Below, piece by piece: positions 1 to 32,675 of a stretch of DNA of 49,501 nucleotides. This DNA is from Amylostereum areolatum (lineage: Eukaryota; Basidiomycota; Agaricomycetes; Russulales; Stereaceae): NCBI GenBank assembly GCA_012932865.1, contig SAXG01000150.1, positions 1 through 49,501 of the forward strand. The letters are read 5' to 3'. A model generated the notes under the pieces. It saw only the letters and a list, made by a program, of their open reading frames with translations, did no database searches and was not told the DNA's origin. Numbering within the stretch: the first letter of the stretch is position 1; every line of letters starts with the position of its first letter. The translations under genes were made by a program, and so were the position numbers.

Positions 1-1785
1 CCAAGCCCTCGTGCCGTGCGCCCCGCCCTCCCGCCCTCCTCTCCTCCTCTCACCCACCACCCCCTCCACAGCACTCGCAAAACAGACCCAGAACCCCGCC
101 CCACCGCCCGCCAGCTGCTCTCCGAAAACCCGTACACCCCCACCTCCGCCCTCGCCCAGGCCGTCATGCACGCCTCCCGCACCCTCTCCGAACTCGTCGT
201 CGTCCGCGAATGGCTCCACGACACCGCCCCACCCCCGCCCGCCCCGAGCCCACCACCGGCTACTGGCGCTTCACCCAACACCGCCTGATGCACGCCCTGC
301 GCACCGGCAACAGCGGCAAGGCCGTCGACGGCATCGTGAAGGAGATGGATCCCGACGCGGTCGCGCGCGAGGGCAGGGCGCTCGCGGCGGACGACGCGGT
401 CAGTGGTTCGCTTGTCACAGCAAACCTGGGGCCATCGGCCCTGACGGGGAAATGCGGGGGGAAAGGGTGACGGAAAAGAAAAAGATACCTGACTTGGTTG
501 CACAAAGGGGGAAAGGCGCAGAAGTGCATATCCCGATCGAATAATCTCAACCTTTTCCTGGAGTGCGCCTTTCCCCCTTTGTAAAGTGTCGGACTTTCTT
601 CTTTTCCTTCACTCTTTCCCCTCGCCTTTCCCTATCAGGGCTAATAGCCCCAGGTTTGCTGTGTGTGCCCGTTGGCGGGGACTGACCGACGCACGCCCAT
701 TCAGAATCACGAAAAGGCGCTCGCCCAGACGCTATACGCGTACGTGCGCGCAGGAAAACTGGACGCCGCCGTCGAGCTCTGCAGGGAGGTCCACCAGCCC
801 TGGCGCGCGGCCAGCATCCGCGGCGCCCTCCTCTTCTCGTGGCGAGCGATAGGTCCGTCCTCCCGTTGCTCGTCCACCGGTGCCGTCTGACCAAGGTGCC
901 AGCCACCGAACCGCGCGACGAAGACGACGAGCAGGAGGAGACCGCCCTCTGGCAAGGCAACCGCTGGCGGAACCTGTGGAAGACGGCCTGCACACGCTGC
1001 CGCCTTGGACGTGCGTCCCCCCCGCTCATGTCCTCCGCCCGCTTGTTGACGTTCGTTCCCCAGCCCCATCTCCCGGACACCGAACGCGCGCTCTACGCGG
1101 CCCTGGCCCCCTCCGCCTCCACCGCGGGCGTCCTCGAGGCCGCATGTCGGACCTGGGAGGACAACATGTGGGCGCAGGTCAGCATCCTCTGCGAAGACAA
1201 GCAAACCGCCACCGTCGCGTCCCTCGGCGGCGGGTTCTGGGAAGGCGGGCGTGCCGGCGGTCGAGACCGCGCTCGACTTGGCCGATGGCGTGGACGAGGA
1301 GCGGGAGGAAGAGGCGTGGCGCGCGGAGGTCGAGGAGGCGCTGCAGGCGTGGCCACCGTCACCGTGGACGATGGGCGAGTGCTTTCCTCTCTCTTCTTTG
1401 AAGCGGCTTGCTCACGACCGTGTCAGTCTTCCCGCAGACAACGCGTTTCCACATGTCCCAGCTCCACATCATCTTAGACCGCACGGACGCCCTGCTGGAC
1501 GACTTCGCCGTCCGTCTACGAGATGGGCTGTACGACCCGACGTCCTCCGAGTACGTCCACCCGTCGCGTCCCTCTCCACCCGGTTTCCAACCGTGCGCGA
1601 CAGATACCCCACCATGACGCGCTTCTTCGCGCACCTCTGCCTCTTCCTCCAAATGATCGACATCCAGGTCTCCCCGCTCGCCACCGAAACCATCCTCGAA
1701 GCCTACCTGCAAGTCCTCGAGGTATGCGCCCCGACCCGTTCGCGTTTTCTCGCGCTCATGTGTTTTCCTCACAGGCCGCGGGCCA
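1..1785 (+). pseudogene. Truncated 5' part of a Nup107/Nup84 nucleoporin gene
   Basis: This stretch aligns almost base for base with 8577-10373 of the complete Nup107 gene in the same window, including introns. It enters inside the first exon (window edge) and stops twelve bases into exon 8, after which similarity ends abruptly. Compared with the full copy it differs mainly by single-base indels: one base lost near 241, one gained near 999, one gained near 1247, one lost near 1346 and one gained near 1449. Each breaks the frame, so no continuous nucleoporin can be made. Substitutions are rare except in the last intron (1722-1774), which is strongly diverged from its counterpart at 10299-10360. 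The 5' end lies outside the window. I infer a partial duplication product rather than a functional gene; homopolymer sequencing errors could account for some indels. Confidence 0.85.
416..663. mobile_element. Foldback MITE-like element inside a Nup107 intron (copy in truncated gene)
   Basis: A 248-bp element whose two halves are long inverted repeats of about 100 bp. The ends read CACAGCAAACCTGGGGC and its reverse complement, and it is flanked on both sides by TGT, a possible 3-bp target duplication. It lies wholly inside the intron following the exon that ends in the Asp-Ala codons near 398. The same insertion occurs in the full-length gene at 8994-9241, so it predates the duplication. There is no coding capacity. 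The CACA start and 3-bp duplication recall CACTA-type transposons, but that class assignment is inference. Confidence 0.8.
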
Positions 1786-2279
1786 GCTCTCGGCCCGCGC
1801 ATCGGATAAGCCACCGCACGCGCGCGCCTTGGACCCGAACTCCAACCCGAACGCCTCACCACCAGATCCTCCCTCCCCCCGATGACGTCGGCCGCGTTCG
1901 ACCGTCCCGCCGCATCTGTTCTCCCGCGCACCTGCTTGGCATGGGCCACCTCGGGCGCGTTCCAGGATGTGTTTGGGTGGATAGCGGGCATGATGGGGAT
2001 TGGCGGGGACGTTCGACGGCGCGGGCAGCGCGCGCGCGTACGGGAGCACAGGAACAGACGGGGACAGGCCCGACGGTCTTGGGCGGGACGTGGCGCCGGG
2101 GCGGGCGGGTGCGTTCGGTGTGTGGCGTTGACGGGGACGATGATGTCGTACGATAGGTTTGAGGCTGGTGTATCACGACGGTACTTAACCAGCTCTCACG
2201 GGCTCTTCTCGTATTCCTCGAAAACATGTGCGGCAGTCCGCGAGCGTGCAAGGCAGGCGTGGGTAGCCGCGTAGGAGAA
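1786..2279. other. Unassigned segment between the Nup107 fragment and the repeat element
   Basis: About 490 bp with no similarity I can see to other parts of the window. By analogy with the GH31 locus, where a fragment of the upstream neighbour's tail lies at the equivalent junction, this could be the tail of whatever gene precedes Nup107 outside the window. A plus-strand open frame (1882-2274) is present but carries no motif I recognise. Confidence 0.3.
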
Positions 2280-3483
2280 ACCAAAGTCAGAAAACTGCGT
2301 GAAAACGCGTCTTTTCAATCCGTCTCTCTTCCGTTCCGCCTCTTTCCTCACTCCTCCCCTTCTCCTTCCCGCCATCTCCTGCCCCACGACCTTTTCTGTC
2401 CAGGCCATATTCGCAGAGAACGAAGGCGCTTCGGAACACGCACACAAACACTGTGAACCGAGGTGAGTTTGCAGACCCGCGCGTCCAATCCCCGAGTCTC
2501 TCCCTCGCAGCGTCCCCACCGTCGACAAACCTGACTTCAAGCCTTCTCGCGGGCCCACGTCCGTTCCGTTGCGCGCGCGCATCCACACTGCCGTGAGAGC
2601 GGTCAGCGGAATTCGAAGGTGCGTAGAGATAGGACTTGTCTTTGAAAGGCAGAGCGTCGGCAGGAGCAGGGGGGGAAACGGCGTGAACAGGTGAGTTTCC
2701 CGTCCGTCTGCACGAGCAGCAGCGCTCACCCTTCTTTCGCCTCCCGCTACAAACACCTCCGCCCTTCCCTTGCCCACGCTCTGTCCCTGTGAAGCCGTGC
2801 ACTTGCATGCGACGGATTTGTCATCGACGTACGCGACCTCTCGTGTACATTCGTGCGCCGCACGATGCGAGACGGAGGTCGAGTCGGACGTGACATGTGA
2901 AGACGGGAGCCGTGTCGGTGGCCCTGACATCTGAACCCTGATAAGCGGTAAGTAAGCCGCTCTCCCGACGGACCTGCCGCTTACCCACTGTTCACGACAG
3001 ATGACGCGGTCAAACCACATTCGCCGCCTGTGTGTGTACCGAGGACTTGATACAAAGGCCCTGGGCGCACAAAGTGTGAGTAGACACTTCATCTGTACCG
3101 AAAGGAGACCTGCAGGGATATGCGTAGGTGTACTGATGCCTCACTGGTCTTGTCCGTCTGAAGTCACGCATGGAGCATATTCCGGAATAGAGAAGTGGGA
3201 CCAAAATTCACCGCTGCTGACACTGCGAGCAAAGGATGGGTTGAAAATGTGGTCCATTCCATCCGCACTGTACAGCACTTAAAACCAGAGATCATTGTGG
3301 TGACCTTCTGCCTCCCACCCTCACATGCTTATTCCTAATAAAAATTCCTGCCGTCGGAGGGAAAGCATGACTACGAAAGAAATATGGACCACGAGCGTAA
3401 CCAGTCTGGGACGTAAGGCGAGGATAGAAAGGTGAGGAGGAGAGGCAGAAGGCGGTGAGGAATTTTGGGGGGAGAGCTGGGGT

Positions 3484-3490
3484 TTATATA
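3484..3490 (-). promoter_or_regulatory. TATA box of the second unit in repeat element copy A
   Basis: On the minus strand the sequence GCCTATATAAACC is preceded by a block conserved with copy B (the stretch from 3600 down to 3495 matches 30015-30120). The identical TATA context at 30124-30130 suggests a conserved polymerase II promoter. The following 150 nt is a pyrimidine-rich leader in both copies. Confidence 0.5.
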
Positions 3491-4945
3491 GGCTCTGCCT
3501 CTCGGAGCTCGATCCGGTCACCAATGTGCCGGCTCCATCTCCAAGCATCCACCGGGGTGACTCCGGTCGCCATGTGTGATGCGAAGAACGAGGCCTAGGC
3601 CGCTCCGAAGCCGCCTCCGTGGCAGTTGATGGAAGCCCAAGAACCTTCAGGATAATTTTGGACTCTTCGGCCCCGGATGCAGCTGTTTTGCGGGAAAGGC
3701 GGTCCTCTTTGCCCTTTGTATGACATTTGAAGCAGCCTTGCTCCATTCTCGGAAAGCAATATCTAGCCAGAATTTGCCGCAGAAGTGAAAATCATTGTTG
3801 CTCTGATGCCGGAGACGTGCAAGCCTTTCGACGATGCTTGCCCTCTGCCAAAGACCACTTTCCCTGCACCATCTTGCATAACCTGGAAAGGAGCAGAAGT
3901 ACTTCACTGTGCAGATGGTGCTTGCGTTGGCAGCGGTGATCTGCATGATTGGGGTTCACTTTAGTTCATCTCCGAGTCACTTTCATTTCATTCCGAAAAC
4001 CAGTCCACTATTTCTGCGGGTTCTGTGCTGTTGCACGTAACCTGAATGGGGATGGGAATATGTGCAAATTGCACAAGACAGTCATGCAGAACACTGTTTC
4101 CAAATTCAGAACATCGCATAATCATCTGGAAGCAAGCCTTGAACAGACCTGCCAGTGGTTTCCAACAAGCTCACAAAAATAAACTGGAAAGGGACAGAAA
4201 TGAATGAGCCAAGCACAGGAAATAATTTCAGACAAGAGACAAGCTTAGGGGTAGATTGTCTTCTGCGGTACAAACACAAAAGGGAGAAAGACCGTGTAGC
4301 ATACAAGTATCGTACCAAGATGGATAAAGTTCAAGTACTGATATAGAGAACACCCCAATTGCGAAGAGGTTGAATACAAAGTGTAAGGAACATACTCAAC
4401 AGGCTTGGTCTCAGAGACGGTCACTGGAACATCCCCCCGCAAGATAATGCAAAGGCAGGATCTACAGAAAGTCAGTGGCACATCCAACATGAGAACGACA
4501 GGGAGCCGAAATCCCGCCGTCCGCCGGTCGAGCCTGTTCTACTCGGCTAAGTGAGCGGGCACTTTCCTTGGCGACGTACGTACATTCCTCCGGTCCCCCG
4601 AAGCGCGCAAGTATAACTGAGTTCTGCTCGAAGCCTCCGAGCGGCCTCTCCGCCAATCCCCCTCCCGCCGGCATGCTCCCGCATCGCCCCTTCTGAGCCC
4701 CCCGTCCGTCTACACCTTCCGCTGCGACACTCGCGAACGGGAGGTGCGTTTCGGTCGACGACTTGTAAAGGCGTCGTGCCATTTTTTTGGTGAGCGGCGC
4801 CGCATGCCCTGGTCTTCCCGTCGAGGCTGACAGCCTGCAGCGCCGGCAGGAGTCGAACCAGGGAAGGACGCGCGGCACCGCCGCGTGGCCGTCGGCCGTG
4901 TTTCCGGTGAGTTTTCTTGCCCTCGCGAGAGCGACGCGGACTGAC

Positions 4946-7005
4946 CTGGCGTTCGCAGGGTGCGTGCTGCGGCCGCAAACGAACGCCTGCACGAGCCTCG
5001 ATTTTCTGAGGCTCCGGCCCCGCGGCGAGCGACGCCCCATGCGCCTAGAGGGAGCTCGATGTGCCCGGCGACGCCGTTGTGGGGTAGCGCGGCGTAGCCG
5101 CGTGCATGTTCGCGTTCTGGCGGTGGCACGGTAAGTTTTCATCCCCGTTTCAGACGGGGGGAGCGGCTCGCTTACCGTTTCGTGACCACAGGCCCTGCTT
5201 CGGGCGCACGGTCGACATCGCACGCGTCGAGGACGTGCTGCGCGCGCACAATGGCACGCAAACGGGCCTCGATTTTTCGAGGTCCAGGCCGCGCGGCGAG
5301 CGCACCACCCCGTTCACGCCACACGAAGACGACGTCAAGCACGAGGTGGGGAGCGCGGGGCGGCCGCGCGGAAGTCTGGATGTGTAATGGTAAGTTTTCA
5401 TGCGGTCGATCGAGGGGGGTTCGTGCTTACCAAGTTTCCACCAGGGTATTTCCCATGGCGTGGCAACGCCACGCCGCCTCCCGTCCTGCCCTCCGCCCTC
5501 CCACCGCGCCCCCCGCAAGGCTGCTGCGGACGCAAAATGGCACCCGAAAGGACGTCGAATTTTCGAGGTCCAGGCCCCGCGGCGAGCGCAACACTCCGCT
5601 GACGATGCGCGGAGACGGCGGCAACGTCGACGCGCCACGGCGTCGACGTTGGGTGGGAGGGAGAGCGCGGCGCAGCCGCGCGGACGTCTAGACGCGTGAT
5701 GGTCAGTGTTCACATAGTTCGTCCGGGCGGCGTCGTGCTCACCAGGATTCCTCTAGGGTACTTCCTATGGCGTGGCTTCGCCACGCCGCGTCCCATCCCG
5801 TATCCCGCGCCTCCTTTCGTAGGACCCCCCGCTTGATCACCCCGCCACCGGAAAGGGAGCTGCGGGCGCAAGATGGCGCCCGAAAGGACCCCGAATTCTC
5901 GAGGTCCAGGCCCCGCGGCGAGCGCAACACCCCGCTCACGCTACACGAAGGCGGCGTTGACGCCGACGCTGGGTGGGAGGGGGAGCGCGGCGCAGCCGCG
6001 CGGACGTCTGGACGTGGGATGGTGAGTTTTCCGTCTGTCCGTCGAGGCGGTTTCGTGCTCACCAGCTCCGCTCCAGGTTACTTTGCATAGCGTGGCTTCG
6101 CCACGCCGCCTCCCGTTCCGTCCCCCGCGTGCTCCCCCGCCCCCCGACAGGGTGCTGCGGATGCAGGATGGCCTCCAAAAGGACCTCGAAAATTCGAGGT
6201 CCAGGCCCCGCGGCGAGCGCGACGGCTCGTTCGTGTCGTGCGAAGACGGCGTAGACATCGACGCCGGGCCTGCGTCGACGTTCGCGTGGCGGGGGTGGGG
6301 GCGGAGCGCGGCGTAGCCGCGCGCAGGTCACTGGCAGTGGCATGGTGAGTTCTTTTCCGTCCGTCGAGGGGACCGTGCTTACCTTTTCTCCCCAGCGTCT
6401 TCCCCGATGCGAGGCGTGGCGCAGCCACGCCGTCTTCCATCTCGTCCTCGGCGCGCGCTACCCCCGCCTGCTCCTCCTCCCCTCGCTGCCCTTGGTGAAG
6501 CGGAACGGGTGCTGCGGACGCCAGACAGCGTCCACCGAACGCTCAAAGCATCAAGCTTTTGGCCCCGCGGCGAGCGGTACACCCGCCCTCGCGGGGGCGG
6601 GATCGGCGTGGACGTCGACGGCGTGTCGACGTTCAGGGCGCACGGAGCGCGGCGTAGCCGCGCGGATCCCTGTGGGATTTCGCCAGGTCAGTGTGTGTCT
6701 CGACGCAGGCGCGGAATGACTTACCGAGCATTCCGTCCACAGACCCGACCTCCACGTGCGTCCCGCGCGCTCGACCTGGATGGCAAAGACCTGCTGCGGA
6801 CGCAGACGGGAGGCCGACAGACCCTCGAAACTTGGAGGATCCGACCCCCGCGGCGAGCGGACCACCCGGCCCTCGGAGGAGAGGGGCGTGCGCGGGGACC
6901 CCGCGTGCACGGGATGGCGGGGGCTGACGGGGGCGCAGCGCTGTGAAGGGTCTCCTGGACAGAGAGGTGAGTGCGAGGGCGCGTGGCAGCGGCGGGCATG
7001 CTCAC
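4946..7005 (-). repeat. Array of exon-like GC-rich modules with short introns (copy A)
   Basis: Read on the minus strand, introns of 51-59 nt with GTRAG(C/T) donors, CTTAC or CTCAC branch sites and AG acceptors occur at 6955-7005, 6670-6724, 6331-6382, 6008-6062, 5688-5742, 5376-5430 and 5117-5175. Most following modules open with ACGTCCGCGCGGC or a close variant. Between the introns lie modules of 230, 287, 268, 265, 257, 200 and 171 nt that resemble each other. Several contain a hairpin such as CGTGGCTTCGCCACG, a palindrome of the type CCTCGAAATTTCGAGG and a second GC hairpin. Stop codons and shifted frames prevent a single translation across modules. The donor-like GGTAAGT seen on the plus strand is the complement of the branch-site block, so I read the transcription strand as minus. 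Confidence 0.7.
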
Positions 7006-8113
7006 TGTTTTGCCGCGCGCAGGTCTCCGAGCACGGACGCGCCTCCCGTAAGCACATCGCAAGACGCGAACGACGGTGTCGGCACGTGCGACGCACGCGT
7101 GTACGCCGACGTTCGCGTGGCGCGTGCGCTGAGGCGTGCGTCGGGGGAGGGGGCGGCAGTGTCAGGAACGATGTGCGCGCGGGGGACGCGGAGGAGGTGA
7201 GCCTGTGCGAAGGTGCCGCGTGCGGATGTATGCGTGGCTGATCTTTGGGCGTTTCGTAGGCCTGGCCGGCGCCCCTCGCCTGGTTTCCCTCCATCCGGCT
7301 GTCTCACGTCGCGAGGGCGTTGGCGAACGTCTCTGGCGGGGGACGGTAAGCGAGACGCGCAAACGGGAGTGGCGAGGTGCCCGCTCACCGTGTGCGGCAA
7401 CGTGTACGTGGGGGCGCGGCGGGCGACTGCTTGGGCAGGTCCGCCGCTTTCCGCCGTTTTCGTGGACTTTGCGTTGACGACGGGGTCGCAGCGGATGGCG
7501 GGGAGGATGCGGCGATGGTGCGGTCGGTGGCGGATGTCTGCGGCGCGAGATCTGCCCCGGATGTGCGCAGGCGGGGCACGAAGGCGGCGGACTGTGCGGA
7601 CGAGGTGAGCGAGTGCGAGGGCGTGGAGGCGGACGGACGGACGGAGGGAAGAGGGAGCGGAAGCTGGATGGCGGAATGTAAATGTACGCACGTACGGATG
7701 TCGCGAACGGCGCAAGTTGGCGGGCCAGGCAGATGGGCGGGATTCGGCTAGATGGCGGGGGTGATTGAGTGAAAGGGAACGGAGGGGAGACGGCGACACG
7801 CACGTGGGACGACCGAGAGCGGGAATGCGAGTGCTCGGTGCTATAGAGCACAGGGAATGCGCGTCGTCGGTGCTTAGGCAAATGGGACAGAGACTGAGTG
7901 CTCGTTTTATCAGTGAACGCGTTTTGCCTGCGATGCGGCGGGCGAGCGCGGTTGGGCGGGGGCAGACGGGCGAGGGCGTGGAGGGCGTGGGGGAGAAGGT
8001 GAGAGGTGCATGGGAAGTGGGCCTTCGGGACTTCGCCGTCGCCTCGGAAGTTTGCATTTTGCATGTTGAATTGAAGTCGGCCCGGCGCTTGTCCCTCACC
8101 CACAACCTTCACA

Positions 8114-8152
8114 ACGACCTCGACGACCTCGACGACCTCGGCGACCTGCACG
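8114..8152 (+). repeat. Short GACCTC-type tandem repeat in the Nup107 5' flank
   Basis: A run of imperfect nine-base repeats based on GACGACCTC lies about 160 bp upstream of the Nup107 start codon, in the short space between the Nup107 start and the 5' end of repeat element copy A. No function is visible. Confidence 0.5.
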
Positions 8153-8301
8153 ATTTTCTTTTCGAATCGACACTCACGCCGACGAGGCGCATCAAATACC
8201 GCCCTTGAGCTCGACGAGCACGAAAAAATCCGAGGTCGCGCCCCTCACGTTCTTCATTGTTCAACTCCCCGCCGTTTCCCACCTCCAAGTCGACAAACGC
8301 C

Positions 8302-11300
8302 ATGTCGACGACGCTCTACACGTCCTGCGCAGACGTCCTCGCGCTCTGCCAAACCCACAAGGACGACCTCGCACTCTTGCTCGACCCCGAGGCCGGGTTC
8401 GCGCCTCGCATCCGCCAGATATGCCTCGACCAGCTGCGTTCCCTCCTCGCCGTCCTATCCCACTTTCTTACATTGTTGTCTCTCTTCTGCAGCTTGATCG
8501 ACTTGGAAGCGAACGCAGAGGCCTCGCAAGACGAAATCGACGCCCTTCGGATGGAATCCAACACCTGGGGCCTCCTCCAAGCCCTCGTGCCGTGCGCCCC
8601 GCCCTCCCGCCCTCCTCTCCTCCTCTCACCCACCACCCCCTCCACAGCACTCGCAAAACAGACCCAGAACCCCGCCCCACCGCCCGCCAGCTGCTCTCCG
8701 AAAACCCGTACACCCCCCACCTCCGCCCTCGCCCAGGCCGTCATGCACGCCTCCCGCACCCTCTCCGAACTCGTCGTCGTCCGCGAATGGCTCCACGACA
8801 CCGCCCCACCCCCGCCCTGCCCCGAGCCCACCACCGGCTACTGGCGCTTCACCCAACACCGCCTGATGCACGCCCTGCGCACCGGCAACAGCGGCAAGGC
8901 CGTCGACGGCATCGTGAAGGAGATGGATCCCGACGCGGTCGCGCGCGAGGGCAGGGCGCTCGCGGCGGACGACGCGGTCAGTGGTTCGCTTGTCACAGCA
9001 AATCTGGGGCCATCGGCCCTGACGGGGAAATGCGGGGGGAAAGGGTGACGGAAAAGAAAAAGATACCTGACTTGGTTGCACAAAGGGGGAAAGGCGCAGA
9101 AGTGCATATCCCGATCGAATAATCTCAACCTTTTCCTGGAGTGCGCCTTTCCCCCTTTGTAAAGTGTCGGACTTTCTTCTTTTCCTTCACTCTTTCCCCT
9201 CGCCTTTCCCTATCAGGGCTAATAGCCCCAGGTTTGCTGTGTGTGCCCGTTGGCGGGGACTGACCGACGCACGCCCATTCAGAATCACGAAAAGGCGCTC
9301 GCCCAGACGCTATACGCGTACGTGCGCGCAGGAAAACTGGACGCCGCCGTCGAGCTCTGCAGGGAGGTCCACCAGCCCTGGCGCGCGGCCAGCATCCGCG
9401 GCGCCCTCCTCTTCTCGTGGCGAGCGATAGGTCCGTCCTCCCGTTGCTCGTCCACCGGTGCCGTCTGACCAAGGTGCCAGCCACCGAACCGCGCGACGAA
9501 GACGACGAGCAGGAGGAGACCGCCCTCTGGCAAGGCAACCGCTGGCGGAACCTGTGGAAGACGGCCTGCACGCGTGCCGCCTTGGACGTGCGTCCCCCCC
9601 CGCGCATGTCCTCCGCCCGCTTGTTGACGTTCGTTCCCCAGCCCCATCTCCCGGACACCGAACGCGCGCTCTACGCGGCCCTGGCCCCCTCCGCCTCCAC
9701 CGCGGGCGTCCTCGAGGCCGCCTGTCGGACCTGGGAGGACAACATGTGGGCGCAGGTCAGCATCCTCTGCGAAGACAAGCAAACCGCCACCGTCGCGTCC
9801 CTCGGCGGCGGGTTCTGGGAAGGCGGCGTGCCGGCGGTCGAGACCGCGCTCGACTTGGCCGATGGCGTGGACGAGGAGCGGGAGGAAGAGGCGTGGCGCG
9901 CGGAGGTCGAGGAGGCGCTGCAGGCGTTGGCCACCGTCACCGTGGACGATGGGCGAGTGCTTTCCTCTCTCTTCTTTGAAGCGGCTTGCTCACGACCGTG
10001 TCAGTCTTCCCGCAGACAACGCGTTCCACATGTCCCAGCTCCACATCATCTTAGACCGCACGGACGCCCTGCTGGACGACTTCGCCGTCCGTCTACGAGA
10101 TGGGCTGTACGACCCGACGTCCTCCGAGTACGTCCACCCGTCGCGTCCCTCTCCACCCGGTTTCCAACCGTGCGCGACAGATACCCCACCATGACGCGCT
10201 TCTTCGCGCACCTCTGCCTCTTCCTCCAAATGATCGACATCCAGGTCTCCCCGCTCGCCACCCAAATCATCCTCGAAGCCTACCTCCAAGTCCTCGAGGT
10301 CTGCGCCCCAATCCGTTTGCTTTTTCCCGCGTCCTCCTTCGCTCACTGTTTCACTTACAGGCCGCGGGCCAGCGGGACCTCATCGCGATGTACGCCGGCG
10401 CGCTCGGCGACAACGCCGTGGAGCGGTACGCGCTCTTCCTGACCTCCCTCGAGCTCTCCGCCGACGTCGCCGAGCGGCGTCTGGCCCTGACGCGCGCGCG
10501 CGAGCACGGGCTCGACGTCGAGCGCGTCGCGGTCGTGACCGCCGAGCGCACGATCGAGCACGCGTTCGCACTGCTCCCGCCCGCGCTCAAGGGGCCGCTC
10601 CCGCGCATCGCCGCGGGCAAGGACGAGCAGCCGAGCGCGGCCGAGACGCTGCTGCTGCGGTCGATCGAGTGGACGGTGTTCGGGGAGGGCACGTACGCGA
10701 CCGCGCTCGAGCAGACGAACGTCATCCTCCGGTTCTTCCTCGGTAAGGCCCCCGCCCCCGCCTCCCGCCGTTCGTTCCGCGTGCGCTGACGGCCGTGTGC
10801 ATTCTCCAGCGTCCGGGCGCGTCCAAGTGGCCCGTCTGCTCTTGCGGATGCTGCCGCCCGAGCTCGCGGCCATCCAGGAGCCGGAGGAGCGCGCGACGGA
10901 GTACCACCAGTACCGGCAGTTTTTCGATATCTGGGAGGGCATGGAACGGGCGCTGGAGACGCGCGCGCTGGAGGCGCCGCAGATGACGCGGGACACGCGC
11001 GCGCAGTGGCTGGCGGATTACAGGGTGCGGGCATCGTGTTCTCCTCTACTCATGTGCCCTTCTGACGCGGAGGGCGGAGCAGGGTTGCGTCGACTACGCG
11101 AGGGAGAAGATCGTGAAGCTGCTCACGACGGACTGGCTGATCCCGGACTCGGAGGACGCCGCGCCGCGTACGTGTTCCCCGCTTTTCTTCTCCGTCTCGT
11201 CGCCCCCGTCTGACCCCGCGACCGTCCCGCAGACGAACGCCGGTTGCGCGAGATGCGGCGCATCCGCCAGCTCTACGTCCCCGAGTTCATCTTCCGCCTA

Positions 11301-11595
11301 CACGCGCTCCTCCTCGACTCCCGCGCACACATCCCCGAGTACGTCGCGCCCCCTCTTCCCCTTCCTCGCCTCGTCCTCCGCCCACCGCTCACCCCCTTTC
11401 TGCCTTGCTTCCAGAAACGTCAAGCACGCGCTCCTTCTGGCCAACGTCGTCGCGGACTCCCGGTACCGGCTCTACGAAGACTTCTCCGGCCCTGGCGGAC
11501 GAAGGCTGGGCGAGTATCTGGACAGGGTGCGCGGGGCGGTGTGCGCGGGGCTGGAGGGGGGTGGCTCGGATCCTTTGAGGGCTGCTTCGGTGTGA
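8302..11595 (+). CDS. NUP107: Nup107/Nup84-type nucleoporin of the Y-complex
   Basis: Structural nucleoporin of the Nup107-160 (Nup84) complex that scaffolds the nuclear pore. My exon model is 8302-8591, 8648-8976, 9283-9430, 9481-9587, 9642-9952, 10005-10127, 10181-10298, 10361-10742, 10810-11024, 11083-11167, 11233-11338 and 11415-11595, giving about 797 residues, close to family size (yeast Nup84 is 726). Family hallmarks include an early segment with acidic, Glu-rich helices, an LCREVHQPWRAASI motif and a long alpha-helical C-terminal half. The model closes in frame throughout except for one extra C in a six-C run near 8709 (five in the truncated copy), which shifts the frame after the PYTP residues; this is either an assembly error or a real lesion. 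The intron after 9952 appears to be a GC-AG intron. The second intron holds a 248-bp foldback element. The transcript start faces repeat element copy A head-to-head. Confidence 0.88.
8994..9241. mobile_element. Foldback MITE-like element inside a Nup107 intron (copy in full gene)
   Basis: Same 248-bp palindromic element as at 416-663, with matching CACAGCAAACC termini and TGT on both sides. It occupies most of the 306-nt intron 8977-9282. Removing it and one TGT leaves a 55-nt intron with a CTGAC branch site and AG acceptor, the usual size for this gene, which supports insertion into a pre-existing intron. Confidence 0.85.
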
Positions 11596-12624: not shown

Positions 12625-12818
12625 GAACTGCTTTCATACAAAATCAACAAAACATACCAGTTTGGGACCAAATACGGACAATAAATGAATGGCGCGCGGG
12701 CGCTTACGTGATTGTATTGTCTGTTTCTGGCCACGAAGGCGGAACAATAGGCCTCGAGGCTTTCATTGACCACAACGCCCTTGTCTTTCCTATGGCCCCC
12801 TCCTTTCGTCGCCGAGGT

Positions 12819-12828
12819 CTATATAACC
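12819..12828 (+). promoter_or_regulatory. TATA box of AA9 gene 1
   Basis: CTATATAACC lies about 150 bp upstream of the ATG at 12975 and is duplicated in the inverted copy. The stretch between contains a pyrimidine-rich leader with CACAC and TCTCT runs, as expected of a strong basidiomycete promoter. Confidence 0.6.
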
Positions 12829-12974
12829 CTCCGGGGGCTCCTTTCGGATTCCTCCCACTCTTGACGAGCTCCCGTTTCCTGTTCTCCAGTTTGACGCATT
12901 GCCCACACACTCTCTGCCTCTGCACACATTCTCTCTAACTGCATCCACGCTCTCAACCAGCTATACATCCTGCA

Positions 12975-22700: not shown

Positions 22701-23662
22701 ATGGGACTGGGAGAGGTTGTTCGAGGCGTTGAACCGATGCTCGAGGTAGACCGCGTGCGCGCCGTATCTGTCCACGGAAACGCGTCGGTAGAAAGATCGG
22801 GGGGGGGAGGACGGACGGACGCACAAGTTTTCGTTTTCCGGGTCTGCGTCGTCGCGCGCCCACATCGTCTGCACGGTGCCGTTCTGGCCGATATCGCGCC
22901 TGAACCCGCTCGTGGCGACGGCCTCGCCGAGCCCATACACGTTCGCGTCGCGCGGGAGCGCCGAGGTGAGCTGCAGGTACTGGTCCTCGAACACGGTCTG
23001 AAACCCGTCAAACGTGAGGTTGTCGCTCGTACCCGAGGACGCCGGGGCAGCGGGCAGCGACGCGGTCCTGGTGTCGAAGAGCGGGTCCGCGGCGGGGTCG
23101 GCGCGGCGGGTGATCCAAAAGGCGAAGGGCGAGGACGCGTGGTTGAAGACGAGGTCGGAGGTGTTGAGCAGGGAGGGCGCGGCGTCGGTCGGGGCGTCCG
23201 GGCGGGGGAAGTACTCCGGAGGGAGGGTGAATTGGCGGGCGGCGGTGTCGGAGATGTGGACGTGCAGTCTGGGTGGAGGGCCAGGATGAGCGAGTGGAAG
23301 AGGGAATCGTGTCCGTGCACTGACCTGGATTGGGTTTCGTACGTGACCTCGATCGTGAGGTCGGCGATGTCGATGCCAAAGGCGTTGCAGGCGGGTCCCG
23401 CGAGGGACAGGTGAGCGACGAGGCCATGCGTGGTCTGTCGCACCGCTCCCAAAGTGTAGCCTAGAAGGAGAACAAGGCGCACATACATTAACATTCAGCC
23501 AACAAACAAGCAGGCAGGCGCGCGCGAAGCCGTACCGGGACAAGTCGACACATTCAGCGAGAGTTGGGTGCCGTTTGCGGCCGCTACAAGACCCGGCGAC
23601 GCGACGCTACCCGCGTACGCGGTCGCAAACGAAAGAAGGGCGTATGTGATCCCTCCCAACAT
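19763..23662 (-). CDS. Secreted GH31 alpha-glucosidase
   Basis: Exo-acting glycoside hydrolase releasing glucose from alpha-1,4-linked oligosaccharides, probably extracellular. I start translation at 23662 because it opens a signal peptide (MLGGITYALLSFATAYA) just after a probable 5' intron. Many short introns interrupt the gene; exons could be joined in frame across the stretches I checked, for example through the GFNGNSDEELCNRW region near 20690-20770. Landmarks are WNDIDLYDN near 22200-22235, the nucleophile motif LWLDMNEPSSF at about 21565-21600, the acid/base region GADTCGF near 20755-20785, and a C-terminal beta-sandwich with GHIPVHVRSGAVL before the stop at 19763. Total length is about 900 residues, typical of fungal enzymes such as Aspergillus AgdA. 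Its 5' half is duplicated at 30822-32675, and repeat element copy B begins just upstream, head-to-head. Confidence 0.9.
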
Positions 23663-24149
23663 GGTTGCCGCGATGAAGAGGAGCTGAATTTGAAGCCTGG
23701 AGGAAGGGGGAGAGGTCAGGGCTCCGGTCAATCCACCGAAGGTATAAATGCGAGGAGACGTACCATCGATGGCGAGGGCGCGCTCCTCGTGAAAATGCAC
23801 GTCTGCTGACCTCGTCGACGTCTGATTTGATGCCCATTTCGACCCGCCGAGGGGCGTCACTTGGTCAGTCGTGTGGAGAGTCTGGAGACTCAGTGGAGAC
23901 TGGAGAGAGGGTGTCTTGGTGTCTTGGAACTCGATGTCAGGCGGTCGGCGGCGTCGACGTCCTGGGTCAGGTCGACAAGGGCGGCTGGGTGAGCGTCGTC
24001 GACGTTGAGAAGGTCGAGAAAGTCGCCCGCATGTTTCGCGCGTGGGGTCCGTGGGGAACCGTGATGAGAAAGGCATTGGAGAAGCGCAAAGACGTAAGGC
24101 GGCTGGCGCGCGCGTGCTTACCACCAAGCGCGTTCGAGGGTGCGCGGGC
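23663..24149 (-). promoter_or_regulatory. 5' leader and promoter region of the GH31 gene
   Basis: A probable leader intron (donor GGTACGTC near 23763, acceptor TCCAG near 23700) separates the coding start from an upstream exon. Up to about 23825 this region is almost identical to the truncated copy (32166-32330). Beyond that, to about 24125, similarity to 32340-32675 drops to scattered blocks such as GGGGTCCGTGGGGAAC. The upstream open frame could encode an N-terminal extension, but its sequence is not conserved between the copies, so I treat it as untranslated. Confidence 0.5.
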
Positions 24150-25239
24150 TCTCTCCCTCCCACTCGCCGTCGCCCAATCCGCTCTCTCCGCCGCATCGCA
24201 GGCAAGACGCGTTCACCGATAAATCGAGCACTCAGTCTCTGTTCCACTCTCTACAGCACCGACGGAGCGTCCGACGGCACCGACCACTCGCCTTCCCGCT
24301 CGGTCCTGCCCCCGGTGCGCGTCTCTCCCCTTCCTTCACGCCGTCCCTCACGCTATCTAGCCGAAACCCGCCCATCCGCCTGGCCCGCCAACTTGCGCCG
24401 TTCCCGACATCCGTCCGTGCGTTTATGTACATGTAGCCATCTCGTCCGCGCCCTTCTCCCTCCGTCCCTCCGTCCTGCTCGTCCCGTCCCCCGCCCCCGT
24501 CCCCGCCGTCGCGCCCCAAGACGCGTCCTGAGACCACGCGAGGTCAGTCGATGCACTCCCTACGCGATCCCAAGTCCTCACCTCGTCCGCCGTCTCCAGC
24601 TTCCCCCGCGGTCTACCAACGAAAACGCGCAGGGCATCGCGGGGCGGACTCGCCCTCGCTGCCCTAAGATCGGCCGCGGATCTCGTCTGCCGCGCCCTCA
24701 GCCTTCCGTCCGCCCCACTCCCATCGTCCCCTGCAACGACACCGTCAACGCAAGCCACACAAGGAACGGCAGAAAACGGCGTCCCGTCGGCACGGACTCG
24801 CTACGGCGCGGAGGTGTGCGAGCACCTCGCCATTCCAGTTTACGCCTCCGACTTACCGTTCCCCGCCCTAGACGTCGCCAGCGCCCCCGCAACCTCAGGA
24901 ACATCCGCCCGCGCTCGACGCGCGCTCCGGAGGGGACAACCGAACGCAGGGGAACTGGTGGAGGGGGCAGCGGGCAGCGCTACGAAATGCGCAAAGGTGA
25001 GTCCACACGCATATATCGACCGCATCGTGAATGCTCACCTCCTCCACACCGTCATCGTCCCGCGCCCGAACGTCCTCCGCAGCCCCGGCCTCTCCTCCCC
25101 CGACGGACGCCTCGGCACACGCGCCACGCGAACGACGGCGTACACGCGTGCATCGCACGCGGCGACATCGTCGTTCGCGTCAAGCGCTGGCCTTGCACGG
25201 CACGCGTTCGCGCTCGGAGGGCTGCAGAACAACAAAAGG

Positions 25240-27294
25240 TGAGCGTTCTTGCCGTTGTCACGCACGCTGGCACTCACATCGATGTCCAGGACACCCTGCC
25301 CGCCTGCGCCGCGCTCCCTCCCACCCCGCCACGCCGTCGACGCAAGGCCCACGCGCACGCACGTCACCTCCTCCGAGAACGGGATGGTCCGCTCGCCGCT
25401 GTGAGCCTCAGCCTCGAAAGCCCGAGGTTCTGGGGGCGCGCTTGGTGCGTGCGCGGCACGCCTTGCAGGGAACGGATGTGCGGGGCATTGTGCGAGGCAG
25501 CGCCTGGTAAGTCGATCCTCGCCTGATCGGGGGAGAAAACTAACCTGGTCAAATGCCACAGGGATCCGCGCTCCACGCGGCCTGACCGTCGAGGGCGACA
25601 CTCCTCCTCCCTGCCAGTGCGAGTGCGCTCCGCGCCGCGGGGCCAAAAGCTCGGAAGATCGAGGGTCGGGCGGACGCGATTGTGCGTCCGCAGTACGCGT
25701 TGCGCGTCGCCAACGCCGGTGCGGGGAGGAGCAGGTGGGGGGGAGCGCGTGCGGAGGACAGGATCAAAGACGGCGTGGCTGCGCCACGCCTCGCGTCGGG
25801 GGAGAACCTGGAAAGGAAAGGTCAGTGCGATCCCTTCAATGGACGAAAAACAACTCACCGACACATTTCCAGACGTCCGCGCGGCTGCGCCGCGCTCGTC
25901 ACCCGCCTCATGGACGCCGATGCCGTGCCCGCATCAACGTCCACGCCCTCTTCGTACGACACGAGCGAGCCGTTGCGCTCGCCGCGGGGCCTGGACCTCG
26001 AGAATACGGGGCCCTCTCGCTGGCCATTTTGCGTCCGCAGCACGCGTTCCGCGTCGCTAACGCCGGTGCGGGCAGGAGGAGCGGGAGTGGGGACCGCGTG
26101 CAGGGGACGGGATGGAAGGCGGCGTGGCTGCGCCACGCCTCGCATCTGGGGAGAAGCTGGGAGGAAAAGGTAAGCGTGATCCCTTCAATAGACGGAAAAG
26201 AAAACTCACCATCGCGGCAGACGTCCGCGCGGCTCCGCCGCGCTCCACGCCCGCCACATGCACGCCGACGCCGTGCCCGCGTCGACGTCCACGCCATTTG
26301 CGTGGGACACGAGCGAGCCGTTGCGCTCGCCGCGGGGCCTCGACCTCGAGAATCCGAGGTCCGTTGGCAGGCCATTTTGCGTCCGCAGCACCCTGTTGGG
26401 TAGCGCGGCGGGCAGGCGTGGGGGACGAGGCGGGAGCATGGGAAACAACCTGGAGGAAAAAAGCTGGTGAGCACAAACTCGCCTCCATCAACTGCATTGA
26501 AACTTACCGTAACACATCTAGACGTCCGCGCGACTGCGCCGCGCTCCTCCTCCCACCCAATGTCGACGCGGTGGCGGCGTCGCCGTTGCCGTCGTCTTCG
26601 TGCAGCGTGAGCGGGGCGTTGCGCTCGCCGCGCAGCCTGGACCTCGAAATTTCGAGGTCCTTTTGCGTGCGATTCTGCGTGCGCAGCACGCTGTTGGGTG
26701 GCGGGGGGTCGTACGAGGGCATGTGCGGGGGACGGGAGGCGGCGTGGCGAAGACGCGCTACGCGACAAGACCTGGGGGAATTCTGGTGAGCACCCACTCG
26801 CCCCAATCGACGACATCAAAGCTTACCATCGCACGTCCAGACGTCCGCGCGGCTGCACCGCATTCCTCCCAACGTCGACGCCGTGGCGGCGTTGACGTCG
26901 TCTTCATCCCGCATCCCGTGTGAGCGGGTGGGGCGCTCGCCGCGCGGCTGAACCTCGAGAAATCGGGGTCCGCTTGCGTACCATTTTGCGCGCGCAGCAC
27001 ATACTCGGCGCGTGCGATGTCGACCGTGCTCCTGAAGCCGAACCTGTGGTCAGGAAACGGTAAGCGAACCGCTCCCCCCACCTGAAACGAAGAGAAAAAC
27101 TTACGATGCCACCGCCAGAATATGAACGGCATGCGCGCGGCTTCGCCGCGCTGGTCCTTCCACGGCGTCGTCGGGCTCGTTGAGCTCCCTCTGCAGGCGC
27201 GTGGGCGTCGCTCGCCGCGTGGCCGGGGCCTCAGGAAATCGGGGCTCGTGCTGGTATCGGTTTACGTCCGCCGCACGTATCCTGCGAATGCCAG
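25240..27294 (+). repeat. Array of exon-like GC-rich modules with short introns (copy B)
   Basis: Introns at 25240-25290, 25507-25561, 25821-25872, 26170-26220, 26467-26522, 26786-26840 and 27060-27118 have GT donors, CTTAC, CTCAC or CTAAC branch sites and AG acceptors, and several are followed by ACGTCCGCGCGG. Modules measure 216, 259, 297, 246, 263, 219 and 176 nt and correspond in order to copy A modules of 230, 287, 268, 265, 257, 200 and 171 nt. The size differences (14, 28, 29, 19, 6, 19, 5) are mostly not multiples of three, so a conserved protein is unlikely. One frame repeats a HERAVALAAGPGPR-like peptide in several modules, but other frames are equally repetitive because the DNA itself is. 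Confidence 0.7.
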
Positions 27295-27604
27295 GTCAGT
27301 CCGCGTCGCTCTCGCGAGGGCAAGAAAACTCACCGGAAACAAGGGTGACGTCCGCCCGGCGGTGCCGCGTGTCCTAGTTCCCCTGGTTCAATACCTGCCG
27401 ACACTGCAAGCTGTCAGCCTCAATGGGAAGACCAGGGCATGCGGCGTCGCTCACCGATAAGATGGTACGACACTTTTCCAAGTCGTCAACCGAAACGGAC
27501 TCCCCGTTCGCGAGCGACACAGCGGAAGGTGTAGACGGACGGGGGCTTAGAAGGGGCAGTGCGGGAGCATACCGGCGCGAGGGGGGTTGGTGGAGGGGCT
27601 TCGA

Positions 27605-29097
27605 GTATCACTTAAATATTTAGATACTAGCATAGACCCATGCATTGCACTCATTCAAGTAGCAAGGCTGTGGTGATTGTATTCAAATAAGCAACAAATA
27701 AGCATAACTAAGTACTAAGCATGAAGTGTAGAAGATTCAACTCGCAGTCCGATAGTAGGAAAACTGTAGCCGGGATGCCTAGAGGGGTTTGTGACGGTCC
27801 CAAATGCTCTCGCTCGTGTCGGGCTCTCTTGGCAATCTGCCATTTCGATAGCAGAGTGGGTTGTTCTGTTCCTTGAGGGTTCAGAGCTGGAGTCCTTGGG
27901 GGCGTAGGAAGCAAGTCGCTGAGGGCCGAGTAGGCCTGCGAATATGCAATGTCGATGAGGACATATCACCTGTGATATGGATAACAAAAGGATCAGTAAA
28001 GCCTTTACTATCACATTGATTGATACTGTATGCACGTACCATCTATGAAAGCTCCGTTCGAGGCTTGCTGGTTGGTTGGGTTCTTGCATTATCGTGTCGC
28101 CTGTCGTTGATTCGGACGTGGACGACACAATACAATGCTGTTGCGGACCTTCAGGATCCTGAGGATGTCGTTGTGCTCGCACTCAAGACCGGCGGTGGCC
28201 AATGGCGTCAGCCGAGGAAAGCTGTAGACAACAATATAGTAAGCAAGGACATTGATCAGTTTGTTAAGGTCAGTCATACCTGGACGGCCGTGTTCTCGTT
28301 CGCTTGCGAGGAGGTTGAATGGGCACTGTTTCTGGGGGCTGCATCTTGGACGGAATCAGTGGACCTGCGTTCCTGCTCGGTGCACCATCCCAATGGCCAG
28401 CCAATGTCACCCCCAACTCGCATAGATTCTTCTGCACAAATAGTACATGTCAGTTCGTCTCGCAAGAGAGAAAGAAAATGCGCACATGATCCAGATGAAT
28501 GCACCGAGATGCACTGGATGCAGATGACAGGGTGTGCTGTACTGTGTCGTGTCGGGTCGTGTCGTGTCGTACATCACTCGAGCTCGGGACCACCACGCCT
28601 CATCCGAGCACCGAGGAAATTTCCCGAAAAATCTCTAGATATATAAATAAATCCAATCAGGGGGGGTGGGAGCGACGCGGTCATCGTGACCGAAGCGACA
28701 AAACACGTCCGTGTTGCTGCACAAACATTGCTTTGGAGGAAAATTGATTTGAATTTGTTTTCTGATATACAAAGTAAAAGGTATAAGTAGGGCTGTGCCA
28801 TGGAGGCTACTTTGACGCTAACGGCGGTGCGTAGAGGTGCCATAGAGAGTGGGAAGGTATGACGGTGGCCAAGTACGTGGTGGAGGTCAAGACGAAGAGC
28901 GACGCGGCGACCCGGCCGACGCGCAAGCCTAGGATGACGCAAGCAGCCACGTGCATTTGTCAACGCGACCTGTCACGTGTCGCGTTACGATGACGTGGCT
29001 GTTGTCCCACAACCAATCAGAAAGCTCACTTGTCTCGCGGTTTGTGTCGTGACGTGACGCAGCGCTCCACCGCGTCTCTCTTTGTATTAAAGGATAC
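27605..29097. mobile_element. 1.5-kb insertion with short imperfect terminal inverted repeats
   Basis: Copy A runs without interruption from the module array into the TATA-containing part (around 4600-4620). In copy B these parts are separated by 1.49 kb beginning GTATCACTTAAATA and ending with the reverse complement of GTATCCTTTAATAC, which look like imperfect terminal inverted repeats. The interior is AT-richer and holds several small open frames (for example minus strand 27715-28182) without any motif I recognise. A target-site duplication is not obvious. A non-autonomous DNA transposon is the simplest reading; deletion from copy A is the alternative. Confidence 0.5.
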
Positions 29098-30123
29098 TTG
29101 CGCGCTCCGGCGGACCAGAGGAATGTACGTACATCACCAAGCAAAGTGCCCGCTCACTTAGCCGAATAGAACAGGCTCGATCGGCGGACAGATTTTGCGC
29201 GCAGGATGTCGGCTCTGTGGTCCGTGTGTCTGGTGCGCCACTGACTCCGATTTGCCTTCCTATCTTGGAGTGACCGTTTTTGAGACCCAAACTGTGATAT
29301 CTGCACCATGCGTCCACTCTGGTTGAGACCTGCTAATCTTGAAATGATCTTCTGTGTTTGGCTCATACCTTTCTGTCGCTCTCCGGTTTCCAATGCATTT
29401 GTTTTTGCAGGCTCGTCGGAAATCGGCTGTCCAATTTCTGGCTTGGTTCATGATTGCTATACTGTCAAGTATCCCATGTAGTGCTCCGACCTTGGAAAAT
29501 TGATCTGCGATGATTTTTGCATTGCTCCGCACAACTCTGTTGTGCAGCTTGAAAAACAGGACACTCTCATGGGCACTCGCAAAAACATTTGCGCATATCC
29601 TCATCCCTATGCAGGCTATGTGCAACAGCATAGAGATCTTGCACTGGCTTTCGAAACTCAGGTTGTCGGGTTCGACTCGGGATGCATGAAGCACCGCATA
29701 AGAATATCACTTATTTTTCCAGGTTATGCAAGATGGCACGGAGAAAGACTTGCACGTCTCTAGTACTAATTGGAGTAATGGAGTAACAATGATTTCCACT
29801 TCTGTATAAAATTCCGGTGAGATGTCTTGGAAATATTGCTTTCCGAGGATGTTGTATCTAAGAATGTAGCAAAGTTGCTTCTCATGTCACACAAAGGCAA
29901 ATGAGGGCAACCTTTCCTGCCAAAAAGCTGAACTTGGTGCCAAAGAGTCCGAAATCAGCCGTAAGGTTCTTGGGCTTCCATGCCCGCAACTGCCACGGAG
30001 GCTGCTTCGAGCAGCCTTGGCCTCGTTCTTAGCATCACACATGGTGACCGGAGTCACCCCGGCGGATGCTCGGAGATGGAGCCGGCACATTGGTGACCAG
30101 ATCGAGCTTCGGGAGGCAAAGCC

Positions 30124-30130
30124 TATATAA
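30124..30130 (+). promoter_or_regulatory. TATA box of the second unit in repeat element copy B
   Basis: GCCTATATAAACCCC, embedded in a block conserved with copy A (30015-30135 against 3600 down to 3475), is followed by a pyrimidine-rich leader. Its conservation between otherwise diverged copies suggests a used promoter. Confidence 0.5.
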
Positions 30131-30727
30131 ACCCCAGCCTTCCGCCTTGAAATGCCCATCCCCTCCCACCTCACCTCCTTCACTCGTCTGCACTTGCCTC
30201 ACATCCCAGTGTCTTTCACTCTACCAGTCACTTCTTTCCGTACAGAGGCCGTCCTTAAGACGGCAGGAGTGTTTACCTGGGATGAGTACATCTGAGTCAC
30301 CGAGTGAGTGTGAGAGACGGAAGATCACAACAATGATCTCTGTTTATGAGTGCGGTATGACATGACCTGGATGTAGTCCCAGTGTAGGCGGCAAGAAATC
30401 TTGAAGTCAGGTTTGTCGACGGTGGGGACAGCTACGAGGGAAACTTGGTAAGCACATAGGATTGGACATGCACATGTCGGAAACTCACCTTGGTTCACAG
30501 TGGCTGTGCACATGCCTTGGAACATGTTTGTTTTCTGAGGAGCGGGGGAAGGAGAAAGCAGGTGAGCGCAGATGCAAAACGGAAGGGACACAAAGTGCTG
30601 CGTGCTGGCGGCTTTGTTCTCATGCACATCCCGCACACACTAGAGACCTCATTGATTGCAGTAAACATAGCTTTCATTCGGAACGCAATTGTTAGCTTAG
30701 GGTACAATGTGATCCTTCCACCTTGCG

Positions 30728-30822
30728 CACGACGCGCTCGTGCTCGCTGCGGTCGAGAACCCGCTACTGGTGGGTCCGCCACCCGCAGCACCACCAACGC
30801 CGATGTCCGCGTTCGCGACCCC
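30728..30822 (-). pseudogene. Fragment of the intradiol dioxygenase gene tail
   Basis: About 95 bp matches the 3' coding part of the dioxygenase gene (about 33047-33178) in the same orientation, with a gap of about 25 bp and scattered substitutions. Shared blocks include CACCAACGCCG and CGCGTTCGCGACCCCGCC. It directly abuts the truncated GH31 copy and is fused to it out of frame. It encodes part of the Gly/Ser-rich tail and has no function of its own. It marks a duplication breakpoint. Confidence 0.75.
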
Positions 30823-32675
30823 GCCATCTCTTCGGCCACAGCCTGAGTCTCCGACAAGTTTTCATATCCCCACCTAACCCCCCTCGCCATCAGTGTTCTT
30901 CCAAAACGGAGAGGTAAAAAAGAAAACCCACCTGCACAGCTGGAAGCCGAACCCCCACATCGGCTGCCAGGTCGGCAATCCGACGACGGCGCCGTACTGC
31001 TCGACGACGCTCTTCGGGTCCGGGCCCGCGAAGAAGTACAAGTCGAGGGTGCCGCCGAGGAGACGGTATTGGACGAGGGAGGCGTTGAACCCCGGAGGGG
31101 TCGCGAGGACAACGTCCGCACCGGCCGCACTGGGTCGCTCGGTGTCAGTCGCATGAAAGGGAGAGGAGAGAGCGCGCGGCCAACGCACTTGGAGAGGAAG
31201 ACGCCATGGGACTGGGAGAGGTTGTTCGAGGCGTTGAACCGATGCTCGAGGTAGACCGCGTGCGCGCCGTATCTGTCCACGGAAACGCGTCGGTGGAAAG
31301 ATCGGGGGGGGAGGACGGACGGACGCACAAGTTTTCGTTTTCCGGGTCTGCGTCGTCGCGCGCCCACATCGTCTGCACGGTGCCGTTCTGGCCGATATCG
31401 CGCCTGAACCCGCTCGTGGCGACGGCCTCGCCGAGCCCGTACACGTTCGCGTCGCGCGGGAGCGCCGAGGTGAGCTGCAGGTACTGGTCCTCGAACACGG
31501 TCTGAAACCCGTCAAACGTGAGGTTGTCGCTCGTACCCGAGGACGCCGGGGCAGCGGGCAGCGACGCGGTCCTGGTGTCGAAGAGCGGGTCCGCGGCGGG
31601 GTCGGCGCGGCGGGTGATCCAAAAGGCGAAGGGCGAGGACGCGTGGTTGAAGACGAGGTCGGAGGTGTTGAGCAGGGAGGGCGCGGCGTCGGTCGGGGCG
31701 TCCGGGCGGGGGAAGTACTCCGGAGGGAGGGTGAATTGGCGGGCGGCGGTGTCGGAGATGTGGACGTGCAGTCTGGGTGGAGGGCCAGGATGAGCGAGTG
31801 GAAGAGGGAATCGTGTCCGTGCACTGACCTGGATTGGGTTTCGTACGTGACCTCGATCGTGAGGTCGGCGATGTCGATGCCAAAGGCGTTGCAGGCGGGT
31901 CCCGCGAGGGACAGGTGAGCGACGAGGCCATGCGTGGTCTGTCGCACCGCTCCCAAAGTGTAGCCTAGAAGGAGAACAAGGCGCACATACATTAACATTC
32001 AGCCAACAAACAAGCAGGCAGGCGCGCGCGAAGCCGTACCGGGACAAGTCGACACATTCAGCGAGAGTTGGGTGCCGTTTGCGGCCGCTACAAGACCCGG
32101 CGACGCGACGCTACCCGCGTACGCGGTCGCAAACGAAAGAAGGGCGTATGTGATCCCTCCCAACATGGTTGCCGCGATGAAGAGGAGCTGAATTTGAAGC
32201 CTGGAGGAAGGGGGAGAGGTCAGGGCTCCGGTCAATCCACCGAAGGTATAAATGCGAGGAGACGTACCATCGATGGCGAGGGCGCGCTCCTCGTGAAAAT
32301 ACACGTCTGCTGACCTCGTCGACGTCTGATTTGATGCCCATCATGATGACTTTCGACGGGGCGTGGGGCCAGGGGGACTCTTTTCTGTGAGGTCGACGTC
32401 ACCGAGTCCGGAACGCGAGTCGGTCGATGGAGGTGATGTCTTGGAATTGGAGCCCGTCGCGGTCGGAGGCGTCGAGAAAGAGCAGATGGGCGGGACGTTG
32501 TCGGACTCGTCGTCGACGTGGTCGAGGTTGAGAGCTGAAGCTGAAGAAGGCTCATGCTTGAGCGTGTGGGGTCCGTGGGGAACTGTGACGAGAAAGGCAT
32601 TCATGGAGAAGCGCAAAGACGTAGAGCAACTTGAAGGCTGCAGGCGTCCACAGGCCCACGTGCTTGCCACAAAAC
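30822..32675 (-). pseudogene. Truncated 5' copy of the GH31 alpha-glucosidase gene
   Basis: Near-identical to 22333-23825 of the GH31 gene and more distantly related across the promoter region (32340-32675 against 23825-24125). It contains the start codon at 32166, signal peptide, introns and about the first 300 codons, but stops before the catalytic domain: the DMNEP nucleophile and the acid/base region are absent. The frame is open through its own exons, then runs into the dioxygenase fragment out of frame. A secreted N-terminal beta-sandwich fragment could in principle be made, but hydrolase activity is impossible. Confidence 0.85.

Follow-up and report, generated by a model that had tools for sequence, protein, structure and literature searches.

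Why does the same repeat element stand between a broken and a complete copy of a host gene at two unrelated loci of one contig? The contig (SAXG01000150.1 of Amylostereum areolatum, assembly GCA_012932865.1; here C57, with other contigs likewise denoted by C and a number) was analysed over its complete length of 49,501 bp, which we call the window; it begins inside a fragment of a Nup107 gene, and the second locus is at a GH31 gene. The original prediction was that insertion of the element and partial duplication of the host gene are linked. A genome-wide check shows that they are: the two copies belong to a family of ∼5 kb elements without a recognised protein gene, which lie at the starts of host genes and have a copy of the 5′ part on either side. 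From the layout, the orientation, an empty allele at GH31 and the edges of the duplicates we infer, with a probability of roughly 0.55, that the element enters by homologous recombination with its target gene through diverged pieces of that gene which it carries. All loci come from one assembly (57.1 Mb in 182 contigs; assembled contigs, not reads), and the genome searches score the best candidates only, so that copy counts are lower bounds.

The two copies, A and B, lie in mirror orientation in the window, and the layout predicted for each, with direct duplicates on either side of the element, is real and recurs elsewhere. Element A occupies positions 2512–8005 on the reverse strand, with its 5′ end near 8005, the conserved 5′-terminal 33-mer at 7901–7933 (reverse strand; located by pattern search) and the conserved 3′ motif at 2512–2538. 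On one side of it is the Nup107 5′ fragment (1–1787, forward strand, clipped by the contig start), which is a direct repeat of 8577–10373 on the other side (98.1% identity). In the intact copy the duplicated segment spans 7981–10373 (forward strand), and matches to Nup107 continue to ∼11.6 kb. C121 holds element A together with both Nup107 copies (99.4% over window positions 1–12023), and there the duplicate runs ∼600 bp further outward (C121 297975–300360 versus 306553–308958; 2.4 kb).

At the second locus, the intact GH31 gene (19839–23837, reverse strand) stands on the 5′ side of element B (24148–30429, forward strand; 5′ 33-mer at 24196–24228 and 3′ motif at 30403–30429), which is flanked by a direct repeat (22313–24096 and 30819–32623, 93.4% identity). 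The core of this repeat pairs the duplicated segment of the intact gene (22313–23837) with the GH31 5′ fragment (30819–32341, reverse strand) at 99.3% identity over 1.52 kb. On C96 the GH31 locus has neither element nor duplicate and is thus an empty allele: window positions 19916–23837 match C96 226000–222080 (99.5%) and positions 30822–38420 match C96 223600–216001 (99.1%), the two C96 matches overlapping by ∼1.52 kb. A direct match at B (30757–30819 and 33101–33163) adjoins a GC-rich tandem repeat (32998–33075) and was not used. Positions 27612–29097 inside B are a young high-copy repeat and not part of the element; 28000–29097 recurs at 100% identity in at least 39 further places, with 40 scored out of 153 candidates, and a 99.7% copy of the repeat (∼1.5 kb) lies in the element on C45.

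The conserved 5′ end was taken from an alignment of A, B and seven further 5′ ends. The resulting 33-letter pattern, with up to three mismatches allowed, occurs at 12 places in the genome (ten of them free of mismatches because the pattern was built on them) and the reversed control at none. Merging allele-like contigs (C57/C121 for A, C155/C140 and C113/C150) gave nine loci, of which seven (all except C126 and C154) were covered by a check that used the 5′ flank of the element as the query for a second copy. At six of these seven the adjoining gene is duplicated directly on the far side of the element, over 1.45–3.07 kb; as background, 47,102 bp of neighbouring sequence holds no direct repeat ≥500 bp long. 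Besides Nup107 (A, on C57/C121) and GH31 (B, on C57), the duplicated genes are those for PRPP synthetase (C45, 1.45 kb), malate dehydrogenase (C155, 1.48 kb), a Yippee-like zinc finger (C121 at 186 kb, here C121b; 1.8 kb; 27.5 bits against a cut-off of 27) and, on C172, a gene without a Pfam name in the piece tested (3.07 kb), which we take to be MINDY-like. The expectation of a truncated 5′ copy does not hold everywhere: on C45 and C155 the duplicate is nearly the whole gene and on C172 it extends into a neighbouring frame. The 5′ end of the element faces the 5′ end of the gene at all six loci (chance 0.03), and the start codon, placed by eye, is ∼45–311 bp from the conserved 5′ end at five of the six. 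On C140, which is allele-like to C155, the second copy is ∼139 kb away and ∼132 kb lies inside the element (C140 26000–158471, against <0.5 kb at C155 144544–145026), which could stem from insertion on a giant scale, from a deletion or from a mis-join.

Elements A (reverse strand) and B (forward strand) are 70% identical over 4644–7976/27599–24155 and 64% identical over 3271–4614/30357–29094; with a likeness of only ∼70% over the best part, the lineages at different genes are therefore old. Modules are present in six of six elements (24 matches, 22 of them aligned), mostly spaced at ∼260–560 bp, and those common to the elements carry a near-invariant GC palindrome. The tandem array of A (4956–6681, reverse strand) has five aligned modules, all of which contain the palindrome GCGCGGC-NNN-GCCGCGC exactly or nearly. 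The 3′ motif GAAGTCAGGTTTGTCGACGGTG, or a near form of it, is found in five of the six elements, and in these five it is separated from the inner edge of the duplicate by a tail of variable length (390–1611 bp). Window positions 2521–2556, which overlap the 3′ motif, are matched at 94% by C163:45732–45767 and C92:9740–9775, possibly further element ends. Positions 4231–4401 resemble a long terminal repeat (LTR), with 72–79% identity to copies on C13, C164, C156 and C150, the C150 copy lying beside gag/pol-like frames; they were rejected as a conserved part of the element. Short genome matches to the element (L024, L027–L029, L032 and L036) lack the 5′ motif and the modules and were likewise discarded.

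Scanned in 50 bp steps, the duplicates are ∼98–100% identical in the middle and diverge at the inner edge at five of the six loci, the identity over the first 50 bp being 68% at A, 70% at C121b, 90% at B, 92% at C155, 94% at C172 and 100% at C45. The outer edge shows a clear drop at C45 and, just outside the identical part, at B. Of the six loci, polarity was examined at two: at A, with a Nup107 relative on C110 (∼81–90% identity) as the outgroup, and at B, with the empty allele on C96. At A, the diverged inner arm of the fragment (1501–1787, forward strand; 76% identity to the intact copy over its last 100 columns) may be a foreign version of the gene. Over the inner ∼286 bp of the C121 fragment there are 32 substitutions, at which C110 sides with the intact copy in 25 cases, with the fragment in four and with neither in three; over the last 100 columns the native copy is 93% and the fragment 74% identical to C110. 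The changes in this arm fall at 3/67 exon positions versus 14/53 intron positions (p = 0.001), which suggests that the arm evolved as part of a working gene, and an unchanged piece of exon lies right at the junction, beyond the diverged intron.

At the inner edge of B, the last ∼45 bp or so of the fragment (30819–30866) form the diverged arm: in the last bins of the comparison with C96 the fragment is the odd one at seven of ten differing sites and C96 at three. At the outer edge, identity ends at the start codon (∼23837). Here it is the upstream piece of the intact copy that is odd: 23838–24096 is GH31 upstream sequence in diverged form, and the whole piece joined to the 5′ end of B (23838–24147, reverse strand), which we denote P′, is 70% identical over 196 columns to native positions 32434–32623. 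The native upstream region (32342–32623, reverse strand) has been left with the fragment and is continuous with C96 (99.1% over 30822–38420). Because of these polarities, the sequence touching the element at the inner edge of A and at both edges of B is not the resident one; the gene portion there was probably brought in by the element and would derive from a diverged form of its target gene, perhaps of another allele or lineage.

The tails also hold pieces of host DNA. The locus-specific tail of A (1788–2511, reverse strand) includes 1789–2162, which matches C121:294421–294998 in inverted orientation in two pieces (78.7% and 85%); the matched sequence sits ∼3 kb upstream of the Nup107 duplicate. 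The divergence of this tail from the upstream piece of its own locus (79–85% identity) is similar to that of the arm, and tail and arm look as if they had come from one donor. The C155 tail contains a TSR2 gene (PF10273, E = 8e-17), none being seen in 1.8 kb beside the intact malate dehydrogenase copy. The tail of B occupies 30430–30818 (forward strand).

Entry by recombination would proceed as follows. A donor molecule would carry, in order, P′ (a diverged upstream piece of the target gene), the element, its tail and E′ (likewise diverged, from the interior or downstream part of that gene), and would pair ends-in with the resident gene by single-crossover or gap-repair integration. The product would be the native 5′ part ending in E′, the element, and P′ leading into the native gene. 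The gene would thus remain complete behind a new upstream region, its old 5′ part and native promoter being left as the fragment, and later exchange between the two direct copies, of the kind seen at Nup107, would homogenise their middle. Ends-in integration of yeast plasmids, by single crossover or gap repair, gives a truncated copy, the insert and a complete copy, with insert-derived sequence at the edges; that is a laboratory procedure, whereas the present case is a natural element family. The identical middles are expected under one-step gap repair as well as under later conversion and therefore do not choose between them.

Several observations weigh against this reading. No donor has been matched, and in the genome search P′ of B matches only itself and the native region. 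At the outer edge of A the outgroup gives no support for polarity: in the first 150 bp (seven sites) C110 agrees with the intact copy at two, with the fragment at none and with neither at five, and at positions 450–600 (14 sites) with the intact copy at three, the fragment at five and neither at six. At C45 the inner edge shows no divergence inside the duplicate, only beyond it, and at C172 the divergence is slight; the outer edges of C172 and C121b show none. At the seventh locus covered (C113/C150) there is no second copy nearby, and the flank holds dispersed repeats. In six-frame Pfam scans, which covered most of A and B as well as parts of C155, C121b and C172, no homing-endonuclease or other nuclease domain was found; a nuclease might act from elsewhere, in trans. 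Lastly, a local duplication of old date whose copies were later converted could also leave identical middles.

That last possibility is the rival that survives best, although we consider it unlikely. It holds that each locus underwent one old local duplication with the element at the joint, conversion keeping the middle alike while the junction edges drifted. Exchange between copies is seen (in one 150 bp bin the intact Nup107 of C57 has the state of the fragment at 16 of 16 substitutions and the intact copy of C121 is native), and edges near junctions generally escape gene conversion. Drift would have to account, however, for the exon–intron contrast in the arm of A, including the unchanged exon at the junction beyond the diverged intron, and for the other host pieces in the tails. 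Moreover, GH31 is still polymorphic for the element, yet P′, at 70% over 196 columns, is too old for drift in a young insertion.

Ordinary transposition or replicative insertion with very long (1.4–3.1 kb) target-site duplications would explain why direct duplicates of varying length flank the element at six of seven loci, but it appears improbable. A transposon target-site duplication was rejected on the inexact edges and on the tails between the 3′ motif and the inner edge; transposons with terminal inverted repeats make a short exact target duplication, and here the duplicates are 1.45–3.07 kb long. Five of the six elements have no end-to-end inverted match, and that of C155 is weak (66% over 94 columns). 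The Pfam scans, which covered A 2489–7480, B 24148–30421, C155 143184–148181, C121 182552–185621 and C172 196623–199780 (and thus not C45, the rest of C121b and C172, or A 7481–8005), gave only TSR2 and one sub-threshold match (Sha_B_N in B 27605–30421, E = 0.018, 15.7 bits, the cut-off being 24.4), which was set aside; no transposase, reverse transcriptase or Rep/helicase was found in these parts. An LTR or non-LTR retrotransposon would be expected to encode reverse transcriptase; the Nup107 duplicate also retains its intron. For Helitrons, whose other marks are TC...CTRR ends with a hairpin, the comparison covered only Rep/helicase and the site of the copies: captured pieces would be expected at a distance from the parent gene, and the GH31 and Nup107 copies adjoin theirs. 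Both mechanisms offered in the original prediction can thus be weighed: a homing-like element carrying a gene portion would fit the diverged edges better, and replicative insertion with local duplication fits worse.

A coding element was rejected on the flat substitution phases between A and B, on gap lengths that are not multiples of three and on the Pfam scans of the parts given above; spliced or novel proteins in the element are possible. An RNA element was rejected as well: Rfam has no match in the window, nor in 3200–8200 at E up to 1, and none of 11 predicted pairs shows a compensatory change in 22 modules.

A variant of entry by recombination, in which a free circle made up of the element and an entire captured gene recombines into the target through one crossover and the array might serve replication, seems very improbable: the layout is that of single-crossover integration and all six elements have palindromic modules, but no free form is seen and a replicative role of the array is hypothetical. 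An assembly artefact, with haplotypes of a dikaryon joined so that a gene is shown twice, is highly improbable, since six unrelated genes have an identical layout and orientation, A is found with both copies on two contigs and the edges of its fragment differ from C88, C110 and the intact copies alike, even though C57 looks like a mosaic, the element is ∼132 kb longer on C140 than on C155, and the evidence consists of assembled contigs. The objection of misassembly is weakened accordingly, the layout being present on several contigs and two loci on two allele-like contigs each, though C140 has the extra ∼132 kb.

C57 may be a composite of two loci: the left part is C121-like, the right part is C96-like, and an inverted AA9-gene repeat lies where they meet. 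A and B may thus stand apart in the living genome; each case stands alone because A is also on C121 and B has an empty allele on C96. Pfam recognised the Nup84/Nup107, GH31 and AA9 genes of the window. The AA9 (LPMO) gene region forms an inverted repeat (12624–19450, 90% identity) with a third related copy between the arms. C121:286409–288859 is 69–75% like the GH31 gene and lies ∼9 kb from the Nup107 duplicate of that contig. Within Nup107, positions 416–663 and 8994–9241 are an imperfect palindrome of ∼250 bp with dispersed relatives in the genome, like a miniature inverted-repeat transposable element. The best protein match of Nup107, at 47% over 81% of the query, is from Hericium alpestre, followed by Suillus, Termitomyces, Dichomitus and others; together with the AA9 gene, these matches point to an Agaricomycete.

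Tentatively, the family could represent a novel type of selfish element in the nucleus: non-coding and gene-targeted, with one lineage per target, and homing between diverged lineages through recombination with the target pieces that it carries. Each insertion would supply the gene with another upstream region and would by its very design do no harm. We searched the literature and found no report of such an element, and the claim of absence rests on that search. If elements do copy their own target at insertion, mobile DNA would be able to enter genes that the host cannot do without and yet leave it alive. A nuclear family with many targets and apparently no nuclease would show that homing-like spread is possible without an encoded endonuclease, or with one that acts in trans. 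Broken housekeeping genes paired with intact ones in fungal genomes would find an explanation too, as would swaps of upstream regions. As filled (C57) and empty (C96) versions of GH31 are present in one assembly, the proposal is testable by a cross.

Two published systems are comparable. Mitochondrial mobile open reading frames with foreign C-termini, in Allomyces atp6 and in Glomus atp6, atp9, cox2 and nad3 (PMC3630166), likewise bring a diverged part of the host gene and displace the native part; they encode an endonuclease and are C-terminal and short, whereas the present family is nuclear, on the 5′ side and accompanied by 1.45–3.07 kb of duplicate. WHO elements of Torulaspora and Lachancea (PMC7282813) are nuclear and have a complete host gene on one side and a fragment of that gene on the other, as the present family does at six of seven loci, and the gene portion adjoining the element has been proposed to be donor-derived. 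Among five new insertions in T. globosa, two have duplicated part of a different host gene, and pieces of other genes are carried along in insertions (PMC7282813). WHO elements encode an intein-like endonuclease with zinc fingers and replace the 3′ end, mainly of FBA1 (PMC7282813). Unlike them, the present family has no endonuclease in the parts scanned, duplicates the 5′ side, has a different gene at each locus and contains a module array. Because no endonuclease was found, we do not class it as a WHO or homing element but say only that it would work like one: its layout and edges resemble the published WHO model mirrored to the 5′ side of the gene.

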